Shown: positions 7,866 through 15,438 of the stretch, piece after piece | Layout of the letters: every line of letters begins with the position of its first letter | Position numbering within the stretch: position 1 is the first letter of the stretch | NCBI GenBank assembly: GCA_028356125.1 | Contig: JAOMTZ010000013.1 | Location: 1 to 45,849, forward strand | Direction: 5' to 3' | DNA length: 45,849 nucleotides | Source: Candidatus Poseidoniaceae archaeon | GTDB taxonomy: Archaea; Thermoplasmatota; Poseidoniia; Poseidoniales; Poseidoniaceae | Translations under genes and position numbers: made by a program | The notes under the pieces: generated by a model | Told to the model about the DNA's origin: nothing | Seen by the model: only the letters and a program-made list of their open reading frames with translations | Database searches by the model: none

Positions 7866-10007
7866 TCACGCCTGTTGCCAATCAGTTCCGTTCCACCACA
7901 GTGTAGTACCATTGTCCATGGTTCTCCAAGTGTTACCGGATTCATCAGTCCACTGTTGGACTACTGCAGGTTCTGCAACTACTGGAATTGCGGCAGGTTG
8001 TGCAATAGTCTGCTGTGGTGTTGCAACTTGAGATTCGAGATGTGTCGGCTGGAAGGACTTGAATTGACCAGGCATTAGTTGTTCAGAGAAATCCTTAGAA
8101 ACTTCAGCAGCAATTCCTCCGTCTCCTTTTCTCATAAACATAATTCCACCTACTGCAATTGCTATTACAACTGCAATAATTCCAATGATCAACATCATGT
8201 TGCTGTCGTCATCTTCATCTTCAGCTGCTGCTAATTCAGCAGCAAGTTGAGCATTATCTCCTACCCCGTCTCCATCGGTGTCTAATGTCTCACTATCATC
8301 GTTAGGGAATGCATCAGCATTGTCTCCAACACCATCTGAATCGGAGTCTTTGGATTCATTTGAATCTTCAGGGAATACATCAGAGTTGTCTCCTACGCCA
8401 TCCATGTCGGTATCCATAGTTTCGCTTGCATCGTTTGGCAAAGCATCGGAGTTATCTCCTACACCATCCATGTCTGAATCCATGGTTTCGCTAGCATCTG
8501 TCGGGAATGCATCAGAATTGTCGCCAACTCCATCCATGTCAGAATCCATTGTTTCGCTAGCATCTGTTGGGAATGCATCAGCATTGTCGCCCACGCCGTC
8601 CATGTCTGAATCAGTATCTTCGTTAGCATCGTTAGGGAATGCATCAGCATTATCTCCAACTCCATCCATATCAGAATCCATTGTTTCGCTAGAATCGTTA
8701 GGGAACGCATCAGCATTGTCGCCAACACTGTCCATGTCTGAATCAGTATCTTCACTAGGATCGTTAGGGAATGCATCAGCATTGTCGCCTACACTATCCA
8801 TGTCGGTGTCAGTGTCCTCGCTTGCATCGTTAGGGAATGCATCAGCATTATCTCCAACTCCATCCATATCTGAATCTAAAGTCTCACTTGCATCATTAGG
8901 GAATGCATCTCCATTGTCTCCTACTCCATCCATGTCCGAATCTAAGGTTTCGCTAGCATCGCTAGGGAATGCATCAGCATTGTCTCCTACTCCATCCATG
9001 TCAGAATCTAGGGTTTCACTTGCATCGTTAGGGAATGCATCTGCGTTGTCACCAACTCCATCCATATCAGTGTCTAGAGTTTCGCTAGCATCATTAGGAA
9101 ATGCATCCGCATTATCTCCTACGCCATCAGAATCAGAATCGGTGTCTTCGTTTGCATCGTTAGGGAAAGCATCATTGCCATCTAGAGTACCATCTCCATC
9201 ACTATCGATATCAACGATGTCTGCAGAATCAACTCCGTCGACCGTGTTACCAAACTCATTTCCATCGTGTGGAGTTACTTTTACTGTCCATGTCTCACCA
9301 ACAGATGTTGATGATGCAGGTACAGTTGTAGCGTCATTAAATGATGATCGTACAACATTGTTTACGAACCATCGAATTTGTGTTGTTCCTTCAGAATCTC
9401 CATCATCATCAGAATAAGTGTATGAAACGGTTAGTGATCGGTTAACTTCAACATCTCCGTCAGGACTTATCATTACATTTGTGGCCACAGGTGGTGTATT
9501 AGATGGTGGTGCTGCTCCTTCAGTTGATGTCCAAGAATTGGTTCCCCAATTGTCGTTAGTGTTCTGATTATTTCCGTTCGCGTACAGAACTGCTAGGTCA
9601 AATGTAACATCTCCAGTTCCAACTGCTGGTGCAGTCCAGTCAGCAGTCCATGATCGCTGACCGTCGGAACTGTGTGTCAACTCACCACTAACTTGTTTTA
9701 CTAATCCACCAAGGTTAGACCAAGAACCTGCGGAAGCGACTAGGTTGAAACCACCTTGTCCACTAGCAGGCAATCCACTTCCTGACCAAGAGATAGAGTA
9801 TGTCGCTCCAGGCGTGTAAGATGATGGATTCCCGTTCATTGTCGGCATTATCATTGCATCAGTGTTGTGACAAAAACAACCTGAGCCAGTTGCAGCCCCT
9901 GTTTTGCCAGATGAGTTTGCATCTGCAAGGTTCAAACCAGAAACTGCGAGTAAAATCAAACTGATAGCAAGTGCTCGAGAAATGTTAGACATACCACTTG
10001 TGGTCAT
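7866..10007 (-). CDS. surface protein: choice-of-anchor V/reeler-like domain, TSP3 repeats, membrane anchor, Trp-rich tail
   Basis: A 713-residue acidic exported protein. A signal peptide covers residues 1-30 (an alternative start is Met6). It is followed by a reeler-like, choice-of-anchor V type domain to about residue 165, with GSGCFCHN at its head, SSYTPGATYSISWSG, and WTADWTAPAVGTGDVTF. A short beta domain (PPVATNVMISPDGDVEVNRS) comes next. Then follow about 14 calcium-binding thrombospondin type 3 units of 22 residues (DSDMDGVGDNADAFPNDAS pattern). One transmembrane helix spans about 604-625. The tail ends in a Trp-rich mini-domain (686-713, WTDESGNTW...WWNGTDW) resembling DUF2510. GAGG lies 5 bp before the start. 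The large plus-strand frame across it is an antisense artefact of the repeats. Confidence 0.82.
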   Translation of the reverse strand: MTTSGMSNISRALAISLILLAVSGLNLADANSSGKTGAATGSGCFCHNTDAMIMPTMNGNPSSYTPGATYSISWSGSGLPASGQGGFNLVASAGSWSNLGGLVKQVSGELTHSSDGQRSWTADWTAPAVGTGDVTFDLAVLYANGNNQNTNDNWGTNSWTSTEGAAPPSNTPPVATNVMISPDGDVEVNRSLTVSYTYSDDDGDSEGTTQIRWFVNNVVRSSFNDATTVPASSTSVGETWTVKVTPHDGNEFGNTVDGVDSADIVDIDSDGDGTLDGNDAFPNDANEDTDSDSDGVGDNADAFPNDASETLDTDMDGVGDNADAFPNDASETLDSDMDGVGDNADAFPSDASETLDSDMDGVGDNGDAFPNDASETLDSDMDGVGDNADAFPNDASEDTDTDMDSVGDNADAFPNDPSEDTDSDMDSVGDNADAFPNDSSETMDSDMDGVGDNADAFPNDANEDTDSDMDGVGDNADAFPTDASETMDSDMDGVGDNSDAFPTDASETMDSDMDGVGDNSDALPNDASETMDTDMDGVGDNSDVFPEDSNESKDSDSDGVGDNADAFPNDDSETLDTDGDGVGDNAQLAAELAAAEDEDDDSNMMLIIGIIAVVIAIAVGGIMFMRKGDGGIAAEVSKDFSEQLMPGQFKSFQPTHLESQVATPQQTIAQPAAIPVVAEPAVVQQWTDESGNTWRTMDNGTTLWWNGTDWQQA
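8250..9215 (-). repeat. tandem 66-bp repeats encoding thrombospondin type 3 units
   Basis: About 14 head-to-tail copies of a 66-bp unit plus one partial copy, coding for 22-residue units of the form D-x-D-x-DGVGDN-x-DAFPND-x-SE. Copies differ by synonymous and a few amino-acid changes (for example DSVGDN in two units, DALPND and DVFPED in two near the C-terminal end). The run therefore shows divergence rather than very recent expansion. It lies wholly inside the coding frame. Confidence 0.9.
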
Positions 10008-11610: not shown

Positions 11611-14600
11611 ATGCGGAAGGCACTTTTTCTTTCGGGATTGATGTTGTGCGTCATTTTTTTACCTGCAGTTTCGGCTGTTGATGGTGATGGAGATGGTATC
11701 GATGATTCAATCGATATTTGTCCTTATGCAGCAGGTACTGCAAATTCTACTGCAGGACTAGGTTGTCCTGATTCCAATGGCGATGGACTGGCTGACTTTG
11801 AACAGGCTGTTATGCACGAGTGGGGAGATTCGATCAAAGAAAATATCGATTATGGTACGGTCGGTAGCGAAGTGTACGGTCTAGCTTGGGCGAAGAATAA
11901 TTCCATGTTTTATGCTGGTGGGAAAGACAACAACGTCCATATTTTCGATTCTATGGGTAACCACCAATCATTCCTCTATTCTATGCCAGGTGACATCTAT
12001 GGCATTGCAGCATCTCCAGACGGAGCACATCTTGTAGTATCTAGTGATAATGGAGGTTGCCGAGTCATAAATGCAACAACCGGAGCATTAGTTGCTGACT
12101 TGTGGAATGGGACCTCAAACAATGGTGTCTTTGAAGTTGCATGGTCCAATGATGGAAGTCGAATTATTGCAGGAGGTGGAGATTCCATCGTCAAGTGGTT
12201 CTACACTAGCAATTGGTCAATAGAGCGTAATATCACGGATATACCAGGATGGATTAGCGCTATTGACACTACTCCAGATGACAGAATGGTAATATTTTCT
12301 TCCAACAGTCAAGTCAAGGGTTATTGGTCCAATAATGGCACAATGGCTCTTAATATGACAAATCATACTGATTATGTCCGCAGTTTATCGGTAAGTCCTG
12401 ATGGAAGATTTATAGCAAGTGGCTCGAATGATCATAAGATTATAATTACAGATATCGCCAGCCAGACAATTGTTCAAACAATCGATACTCTTCGTGATGT
12501 GTATTCTCTTGATTTTTCTCCAGATGGCGGGACTTTAGTCGCAGCCCACAACCGAGAGGAAGGTCTTCTTGCTTACCGCACAGATACATGGAGCAGTTTA
12601 GGAGTAATGGATGGCTTTGGTTCTAGCAACAATAACCGCGGAGTCTATACTGTGGAATTCGATGCAGATGGTGATAAATTAGCAGTTGGTTGGAGGAGAG
12701 GATATGTCTCAATCCAAATGCCTCCAGATTCTTACATCCGTGTTCATGGAGAACACTACACTGCTTTGATGGAGAGCTCTTGGCGTTCATCTTACCCAAC
12801 AAATGACGAATCAGTTCGAGTTTGGGACAGAAATCGTGTGACTACTACTATTGATTTGTGTGATTCAAAACACTATATCGGTTCAAGCACTAATGGTGTT
12901 TCACCACAGTATGCTACTAAAGATTCGAATTATTCAACAAATGGCGTGTGGGATTGTAAATATACCAATGAACAAATCCTTGAGATCCCATATGGCAGAA
13001 CCGCAGGTGCTCTAATTGTCAAATCAGGTGGAGCTACTGAATCCTGTTTACAGTCAATCGGTGGTCTATCAATGGCTCAAGTCAGATGGATAACTTCTGG
13101 TCAAACAAAGTCAGATTTGACTACAAACGCTGAAATGCCGGGGCTAGTCTGGTCATCTGTTGTTCCAAATGATGATGGCAATGGTATTCCTGAATGGGTC
13201 GACTTAGATTCGTCGTGCCCGGATAGTGAAATCGTTCTTTCCCATCGTTGGGAAAACCAAACGGATACTACAATCCTCGAGGAAACAGTCCTTTGTGGAA
13301 ACTGTGTTAACACTGATTCCTTGTACACTTCGACCTCTTCACGTTACAGAGCAGTTGCAGGGGAGTTCAGATCTGATGTTACTCAAGGTGTAGCAGCTTC
13401 AGGTGGTGAAGGTTCTATTGGATTTACTGAATTGGTATTCATTCTAGATAATTCAAATTCCTACATTGTCCCCTTGGTTGACAATTATACTCATGGTGTT
13501 GCTGATGCAATAGCAGATGGTGGTGTTGTAGTAAATGCATCTGTAAATTCATCCAAGTCGGGCGATTGGCCTTTACAAACTGACATGCGGGCATTCATTG
13601 CAACCAGTCAAATTGCTAAAAATCTAAACTTCTTGAAATTCTTGCTAGGAGATTTGGGCCAACTCAAATGGGAGCAAATGCAATTCGTTGGCCTAAGTCC
13701 TTGGGCACTGTACAATTCTTGGGCCAAACTAGGGTTTGACATGTCATACTTACTTCCAGATGCTGATGAAGATGGTGTCTGGGATGGGGCTGATAATTGT
13801 CCTGATACAGAACTTGGATTAATTGCAGACCTCGATGGTTGTGCTGAGAACCAGTTGGATGATGATTCAGATGGTTTAACTAATGATTTAGATGATTGTG
13901 ATGATGATGCAGGTACTTCTACTATCATTCTAACAGGCTGTCCCGATGCTGATGGAGATGGATGGCCAGATGTTGAAGATTCACATCCCGGTGATTCAAG
14001 TGAATGGAATGATACTGACATGGATGGATTTGGTGATAATTCTGATGATTGTGTCGATGATTTTGGAAACTCTAGTCAAGACCTAATCGGTTGTGAGGAC
14101 TTGGATGGCGATGGTTGGTCGAATACAGGTGATTCATTCCCTGATGATCCTACCGAGTGGGCAGATTCAGATGGTGATGGATTTGGTGATAATACTGATA
14201 TTTTCCCTTACGAAAATACTCAGTGGTTAGATACTGATGGTGATGGATTTGGCGACAATAATAGTGGGCTGGAAGGCGATGACTGCCTTGAAGTAAGCGG
14301 TACTTCACATGAAGAGGGATTGTTCGGATGTCTAGACAGTGACTCTGATGGTTGGGCGGACACAATTGATGACTTGCCTTCAAACCCAGAACAACACCGT
14401 GATGAAGATGGAGATGGTGTTGGTGACTCTGCATCCATTGAAGATTACGACTGGTGTATTGATACTCCTCTAGATGAAATTTCAATGGTCGATTCAACTG
14501 GATGCGGACCTTCAGAAAGAGATACGGATTACGATTCGTTCACCGATGACGTCGATCAATGTCTAAACACGCCCATTTCTCAAACTACTCTTGTAAACAC

Positions 14601-15438
14601 AACACTATTCCTGGATTCTGGAAATACGATTCCAAATCCAATCGTAGGCTGTGCCCCATCTGAAGTTGATGCAGATGGCGACTTGGTTTCATCAGACTTA
14701 GATTGGGATGACAATGACCCAGACCAGTGGGTCGATACGGACGGCGATGGGTTTGGCGACAATTCTGCTGTTGAAGGTGGAGATGATTGTCCTATTCAAA
14801 AGGGATATTCATATTACGATCAACTCGGATGTCTTGATTTAGATAATGATGGTTGGTCGTATGAGGCAGATTTCAATGATGGAGATGCCACTCAATGGAA
14901 TGATTCAGACGGTGATGGTTTCGGTGATAACTGGGATAATCCTGCTTGGAATGACTCCAGGTCTTATGGAGAATTCGTTCCTGGTGCGACTCAACCTGAC
15001 CGTTGTCCAGATGTTTACTCTGAATTCCTATATTCAGAAACTGAAGGATGCTTGACATCAGTTATCGAAGACGATGACATTAGTGACGAAGCTAGTTCTG
15101 ATGAAGAAGAAGGCTCGGACTTAATTCTAATTCTTGGACTCGCAGCAGCAGGAATCGTACTGATATTGTTCGGTTCGATTGCAGTACTTCTCAAAAAGAA
15201 ACCTGCCCCTAGTCGGAAGTCTAGTGAGAAAAAATCTTCAACAGGAAAAGAAGTTCTGAATGAGATTACAGATTCAGATTCAGTAACTGAAGAATTAGTC
15301 GATTTTGTCGCAAGTTGGGAGGAATTACCTCCTGGTGATTGGTTACCTGCAGACGAAAATGGAGTTAATTGGTACAAAGACGAGGACGGCAGGCATTGGT
15401 ATTCAGATTCTGACGGGTATCGTATTTGGGACCAGTAA
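11611..15438 (+). CDS. giant surface protein: WD-like beta-propeller, TSP3 repeats, membrane anchor, Trp-rich tail
   Basis: A 1275-residue acidic exported protein. A signal peptide covers residues 1-23. A TSP3-like calcium loop follows (DGDGDGIDDSIDICP). Then a beta-propeller of about seven WD40/YVTN-like blades spans residues about 70-370, with SPDGAHLVVSS, SPDGRFIASGSNDHKI and FSPDGGTLVAA as blade strands. A middle domain of unknown fold contains scattered Cys. Many irregular TSP3 repeats (DTDGDGFGDN-type) lie at about residues 715-1140. A transmembrane helix spans about 1171-1194, followed by a Lys-rich stop-transfer. The tail ends with a Trp-rich mini-domain (PPGDWLPADENGVNW...DGRHWYSDSDGYRIW). 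An earlier ATG at 11554 would put 19 residues before the signal peptide and is not favoured. A receptor or scaffold role is inference. Confidence 0.82.
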   Translation: MRKALFLSGLMLCVIFLPAVSAVDGDGDGIDDSIDICPYAAGTANSTAGLGCPDSNGDGLADFEQAVMHEWGDSIKENIDYGTVGSEVYGLAWAKNNSMFYAGGKDNNVHIFDSMGNHQSFLYSMPGDIYGIAASPDGAHLVVSSDNGGCRVINATTGALVADLWNGTSNNGVFEVAWSNDGSRIIAGGGDSIVKWFYTSNWSIERNITDIPGWISAIDTTPDDRMVIFSSNSQVKGYWSNNGTMALNMTNHTDYVRSLSVSPDGRFIASGSNDHKIIITDIASQTIVQTIDTLRDVYSLDFSPDGGTLVAAHNREEGLLAYRTDTWSSLGVMDGFGSSNNNRGVYTVEFDADGDKLAVGWRRGYVSIQMPPDSYIRVHGEHYTALMESSWRSSYPTNDESVRVWDRNRVTTTIDLCDSKHYIGSSTNGVSPQYATKDSNYSTNGVWDCKYTNEQILEIPYGRTAGALIVKSGGATESCLQSIGGLSMAQVRWITSGQTKSDLTTNAEMPGLVWSSVVPNDDGNGIPEWVDLDSSCPDSEIVLSHRWENQTDTTILEETVLCGNCVNTDSLYTSTSSRYRAVAGEFRSDVTQGVAASGGEGSIGFTELVFILDNSNSYIVPLVDNYTHGVADAIADGGVVVNASVNSSKSGDWPLQTDMRAFIATSQIAKNLNFLKFLLGDLGQLKWEQMQFVGLSPWALYNSWAKLGFDMSYLLPDADEDGVWDGADNCPDTELGLIADLDGCAENQLDDDSDGLTNDLDDCDDDAGTSTIILTGCPDADGDGWPDVEDSHPGDSSEWNDTDMDGFGDNSDDCVDDFGNSSQDLIGCEDLDGDGWSNTGDSFPDDPTEWADSDGDGFGDNTDIFPYENTQWLDTDGDGFGDNNSGLEGDDCLEVSGTSHEEGLFGCLDSDSDGWADTIDDLPSNPEQHRDEDGDGVGDSASIEDYDWCIDTPLDEISMVDSTGCGPSERDTDYDSFTDDVDQCLNTPISQTTLVNTTLFLDSGNTIPNPIVGCAPSEVDADGDLVSSDLDWDDNDPDQWVDTDGDGFGDNSAVEGGDDCPIQKGYSYYDQLGCLDLDNDGWSYEADFNDGDATQWNDSDGDGFGDNWDNPAWNDSRSYGEFVPGATQPDRCPDVYSEFLYSETEGCLTSVIEDDDISDEASSDEEEGSDLILILGLAAAGIVLILFGSIAVLLKKKPAPSRKSSEKKSSTGKEVLNEITDSDSVTEELVDFVASWEELPPGDWLPADENGVNWYKDEDGRHWYSDSDGYRIWDQ

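Follow-up and report, generated by a model that had tools for sequence, protein, structure and literature searches.

A lineage-specific mini-domain on the tails of Poseidoniaceae surface proteins, a candidate cytosolic docking module

DUF2510 is a Trp-rich mini-module that lies beside membrane helices, as in short mycobacteriophage membrane proteins, and is also found in actinobacteria. WW domains (PF00397) are small antiparallel sheets with a DG turn, an aromatic pair on one strand, and a Trp on the last strand. The WW-like domain in PMT of Mycobacterium tuberculosis, reported as the first such domain with a function in any prokaryotic protein, shows that modules of this kind are not confined to eukaryotes (PMC12331936). 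In the choice-of-anchor families, one tail type (PGF-CTERM or MYXO-CTERM) is common to many ectodomains. Here we describe a mini-domain that partly resembles each of these and that ends two surface proteins, P0001 and P0002, encoded in a window of 45,849 nucleotides. This window spans the whole of contig G000:C5, from an archaeal genome with a completeness of 65%.

The relatives in which the tail was matched are named as Candidatus Poseidoniales and Poseidoniaceae, and the contig itself probably belongs to Poseidoniales, family Poseidoniaceae. These are the Marine Group II archaea, which have been described as more abundant in the plankton of surface oceans than any other archaea. Judging from the names of the relatives and from PMC6461757, family f1 of our genome searches would be Poseidoniaceae and family f2 Thalassarchaeaceae. 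Genome work on Marine Group II has led to the proposal that its thrombospondin-type genes serve in cell adhesion (PMC6461757). The two proteins of the window and their parts are as follows.

11611-15438, plus strand: P0002, a 1275-residue surface protein with a WD40 propeller, a PstS-like region, TSP3 repeats, a membrane helix, a linker, and the tail module.
13711-15057, plus strand: TSP3 repeat region of the P0002 ectodomain, limits approximate (from sequence and orthologue comparison).
15118-15192, plus strand: single membrane helix of P0002, with KKK after it, as expected for a positive inside (from sequence, orthologue comparison, and a charge census).
15193-15306, plus strand: linker of P0002, putatively cytosolic and variable (identity between pairs of the 16 orthologues averages 31%).
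15307-15435, plus strand: tail module of P0002, conserved at a mean pairwise identity of 71% and modeled as a four-strand meander, with the profile core at 15328-15435.
7866-10007, minus strand: P0001, a 713-residue surface protein with a choice_anch_V domain, probable TSP3 repeats, a membrane helix, a linker, and the tail module.
8136-8192, minus strand: single membrane helix of P0001, approximate (from hydropathy).
7869-7970, minus strand: tail module of P0001, modeled as a four-strand meander (from profile match and AlphaFold).

An earlier note, made from the DNA alone, had remarked that the two tails share an arrangement of Trp residues after a single membrane helix. The open reading frames (ORFs), tails, and helices were all present. 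P0001 ends with QQWTDESGNTWRTMDNGTTLWWNGTDWQQA and P0002 with PPGDWLPADENGVNWYKDEDGRHWYSDSDGYRIWDQ, and nucleotides 14950-15438 encode the last part of the P0002 TSP3 region together with its helix, linker, and tail. When the alignments of the P0001-type and P0002-type tails (A1 and A2) were compared profile to profile with hhalign, the probability was 64% (P 7e-5), and none of 200 column shuffles equaled the score. Iterative hidden Markov model (HMM) searches started from each tail type alone both recruited the intermediate L066/L138 at E<1e-3, and no reversed decoy was recruited in either. A joint profile matched other proteins of the same genome at E values of 1e-10 to 1e-15, and the joint alignment (A4) contained invariant D, G, W, G, and W positions. 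Searches of 61 relatives with single tails (E up to 1) found matches in 40 and 44 genomes, on several unrelated ORFs.

AlphaFold gave both tails one and the same fold, a beta meander of four strands in which the turns are tight and of the D/E-x-x-G type and each strand carries one or two aromatic residues. The strands fell at residues 25-28, 37-40, 45-48, and 53-56 for P0002 (58-residue construct, 21 sequences) and at 15-20, 26-30, 35-38, and 43-45 for P0001 (46-residue construct, 2 sequences); the core predicted local distance difference test scores of the two models were 91-92 and 95-97. With both models, Foldseek found nothing beyond generic meanders and propeller blades. Profile, HMM, and model evidence thus agree that both tails belong to a single mini-domain family, specific to this lineage and about 32-36 residues long. 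Its core runs from D-[ED]-x-G-x-x-W through a G turn and a pair of aromatic residues to a W. The family is undescribed by the Pfam scans run here.

The tail of P0002 is also conserved in relatives, the opposite of what the earlier note had named as a refutation. Among the 16 orthologues, mean pairwise identity was 71% in the tail, 31% in the linker, 64% in the membrane helix, and 71% in the TSP3 region, with the ectodomain at 62-71%. Conservation of the tail behind a freely varying linker indicates a functional module.

The earlier note had likened the PPGDW start of the P0002 tail to DUF2510, and this assignment failed. PF10708 gave no match to the tails at E<=10, none of 21 relatives' genomes had a DUF2510 match over the cut-off, and in a profile comparison with the GWYPDP...WDG..WT core, 2-3 of 200 shuffles scored at least as high as the tails. 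A real DUF2510 member, used as positive control, scored E 5.7e-13. We therefore rejected DUF2510 membership. The similarity is one of a W-x-G-x-x-W ending and of position, and DUF2510 is shorter, with its GWYPDP start.

A census of non-redundant copies revealed the module on many unrelated hosts. These hosts included WD40 and choice_anch_V proteins, and the ectodomains that Pfam detected included fasciclin (six), CBM96 (seven), Big_9/PKD/Cadherin_5, FG-GAP plus fn3, TSP3, and propeller repeats. With membrane helices assigned by a hydropathy threshold, 89 copies were C-terminal and followed a helix at a distance of 22-108 residues. In 78 of these, more Lys and Arg residues followed the helix than preceded it, and in 5 fewer did; the mean was 4.1 after the helix and 1.0 before it. 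Six copies stood N-terminally, ahead of the first helix (L050, L059, L064, L092, L093, and L094), four polytopic proteins bore a C-terminal copy (L011, L025, L028, and L090), and one soluble host family had neither helix nor signal (L067, L152, L143, L132, and L130). Together with the positive-inside rule, the N-terminal, polytopic, and soluble hosts place the module in the cytosol, which is the simplest fit to all hosts and charges. These observations bear out the suggestion that an anchor-plus-tail module recurs and faces the cytosol. As a correction, the module occurs beyond both TSP3 hosts and C-termini. A calcium-dependent signal, also raised in the earlier note, is unsupported because module and TSP3 repeats are separable, several hosts having no TSP3 repeats.

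A different short motif, NITYNIxDSAISGDI, also recurs: it was seen close to where a further TSP3 membrane protein ends (L069, 904-2844, minus strand), and in L047 it precedes the tail module. It could be a second type of cytosolic tail.

The distribution of the module was examined with A4, using assemblies that are incomplete and related, so that kinship inflates the counts. A search across the phylum at E<=0.01 found matches in 27 of 145 genomes, all within the order (23 in f1 and 4 in f2), and none among the sampled genomes outside it. The match in one f2 genome, G038, was borderline (E 0.006) and unconfirmed at stricter limits. Across the class at E<=1e-5, 113 of 195 genomes matched, 95 in f1 and 18 in f2, all of the latter falling in genera g15, g17, g19, and g97. 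No f1 genome was among the zero-match genomes listed (20 of 82, sorted by kinship), and genera g12, g13, g14, g16, g18, and g20 had no match in any genome listed at these limits. Poseidoniaceae genomes usually carry several copies, and that of the window has about ten. Viral contigs gave a single match, on a phage-like contig, which was judged due to chance, and a bacterial match (L097) likewise looks like chance. The contig of L089, labeled Deltaproteobacteria AH-558-G13, encodes the module and a neighbor 58% identical to a gene of a Poseidoniales locus; on account of this neighbor, it is probably mislabeled or contaminating archaeal DNA.

The soluble L067/L152 family consists of a charged core plus the module (L152, for example, has 230 residues). 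We searched 30 genomes with the 189-residue core, omitting the module, and found it in 8, all module-positive and representing 8 of the 9 module-positive genomes tested. It was found in none of 18 module-negative Poseidoniales and in none of three other class members. The co-occurrence gave a Fisher p of 4e-6 (27 genomes) and of 1.4e-4 within f2, neither corrected for kinship. Beside the gene for the soluble protein is a JAMM-type gene, whose product is a Prok-JAB relative just under the cut-off with the motif HxHx7SxxD. It adjoins the soluble module protein in 11 of 11 distinct loci examined (L067, L152, L143, L130, L132, L159-L162, L164, and L165). The ninth module-positive genome, G052, lacked the soluble protein and the JAMM-type gene as well, so this locus may be missing from the assembly. 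The JAMM-type gene occurs in most Poseidoniales genomes and was present in 16 of the 18 module-negative ones, making poor assembly an unlikely reason for the absence of the soluble protein there and ruling out the JAMM-type product as a specific partner. Since the soluble protein carries the module, any genome having it is module-positive by definition; what is informative is that the soluble-protein genomes contain other module copies and that the soluble protein never occurs without them.

The presence of the same module on unrelated surface and membrane proteins and on one soluble protein suggests a common internal docking system, beyond the descriptions in current domain databases. On balance we favor, with some confidence, the reading that the mini-domain is a shared docking module on the cytosolic side, with the soluble module protein, confined to module-positive genomes, as the best adaptor candidate. 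The module would join adhesin-like surface proteins and some polytopic proteins to a common cytosolic assembly, and the L067/L152 protein might act as its adaptor or its regulator, whether through contacts between modules or through a single partner that is shared or competed for. The idea in the earlier note that the tail docks a cytosolic partner thereby gains a co-occurring candidate and becomes plausible, while both the partner and the binding are what we infer. Several considerations weigh against this reading. The soluble protein itself bears the module, so co-occurrence speaks for a shared system rather than for physical contact, and the genomes compared are related. The mini-domain could instead self-associate or act at the membrane surface, and a literature search found no experimental data on these proteins and no paper on the module. 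More tentatively, Poseidoniaceae might have a cytosolic docking code, in which one small beta module sits on as many as about ten membrane proteins per genome, adhesion-type and others, and on one soluble adaptor; this would be an archaeal analogue of receptor-adaptor assemblies that couples external attachment to internal organization. The shared internal tail is a first handle on the inside organization of Marine Group II surface proteins and a ready bait for finding partners.

If the module bound itself or the inner membrane face, surface proteins would be clustered with no dedicated partner. Aromatic beta meanders are able to pair through their edges, and in every host but the soluble family, the module lies 22-108 residues from a membrane helix; we nonetheless think this unlikely, as the soluble family keeps the module with no membrane segment at all and the long variable linkers speak against a fixed position at the membrane. 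Somewhat less probable still is a C-terminal signal for sorting, processing, or quality control, like PGF-CTERM or MYXO-CTERM. Most copies end single-pass proteins that appear to be exported and whose ectodomains are of many kinds, in the manner of the choice-of-anchor families, and P0001 has a choice_anch_V domain. However, those tails are helix-centered sorting signals, whereas here the conserved block comes after the helix and its basic stretch and also occurs N-terminally, in polytopic hosts, and in a soluble one; when the two window proteins were scanned at full length against NCBIfam, no sorting domain scored over the cut-off. A Trp-rich tail outside the cell, such as a carbohydrate- or wall-binding repeat, has a precedent in the Trp-rich hairpin repeats that bind choline or glycans on some bacterial surfaces, but it is hardly credible given the soluble host, the N-terminal copies ahead of helices, and the positive-inside rule.

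We also consider it improbable that the module is a true archaeal WW domain binding proline-rich peptides. The succession of strand, G turn, aromatic pair, strand, and W is that of a WW domain, the PDB matches of the joint profile were mostly WW domains (best E 0.027), and hhalign against a hand-typed WW set gave a probability of 63%, with 0 of 200 shuffles equaling the score. However, the reversed profile scored about as well, reaching a PDB E value of 0.044 with a designed TPR protein, so that 0.027 is not significant. Pfam gave no WW match, and no WW domain was among the Foldseek top 50 of either model. The module has four modeled strands rather than three, shorter loops, and, in A4, no terminal W-x-x-P. 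With the WW pattern of two Trp about 20-22 residues apart and an aromatic pair between them, the alignments agree in part: the pair is present, and the Trp spacing is about 16-19. The linkers contained no PPxY, and we rejected them as proline-rich ligands in cis. We thus keep the WW domain as a weak resemblance; the module may work like one, with a presumed role in peptide docking. The PMT segment differs in that it sits in an extracytosolic loop of an enzyme and is not a mobile tail on many hosts. Proline-rich ends were noticed on membrane proteins near module genes in two cases, L089 7144-7974 (PPAPAPPQQYPPAPVPPQQYPHYPPPV) and L068 1587-2990 (PSAPTLPPPPGAF), and these would be possible ligands if the module is WW-like.

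A link to the archaellum was also considered. Module and archaellin occurred together in 14 of 34 genomes. However, archaellin was missing from two module-positive genomes and the module from three archaellin genomes, and the correlation follows phylogeny, so the link was rejected.

The remaining parts of the two window proteins were assigned as follows. The choice_anch_V domain of P0001 matched at E 1.7e-24. TSP3 (PF02412) matched eight stretches of P0001 at 23.9 bits, below the cut-off of 25 bits, which another module host, L149, exceeded with 25.3 bits; in P0002, DxDxDG repeats are evident in the sequence. A second species of the genus likewise has orthologues of P0001 and P0002 as divergent neighbors (L147, G007:C99 4000-16500). 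The middle of P0002 (window 12751-13815) is related to PstS-like phosphate-binding proteins, with E values of 1e-11 to 1e-25 against L170-L175, and a solute-binding-type domain therefore appears to be built into this propeller/TSP3 surface protein. A typical INIAGSSTVFPVA start is seen in the L170 protein, whose gene, as judged by eye, lies close to a PhoU-like gene.
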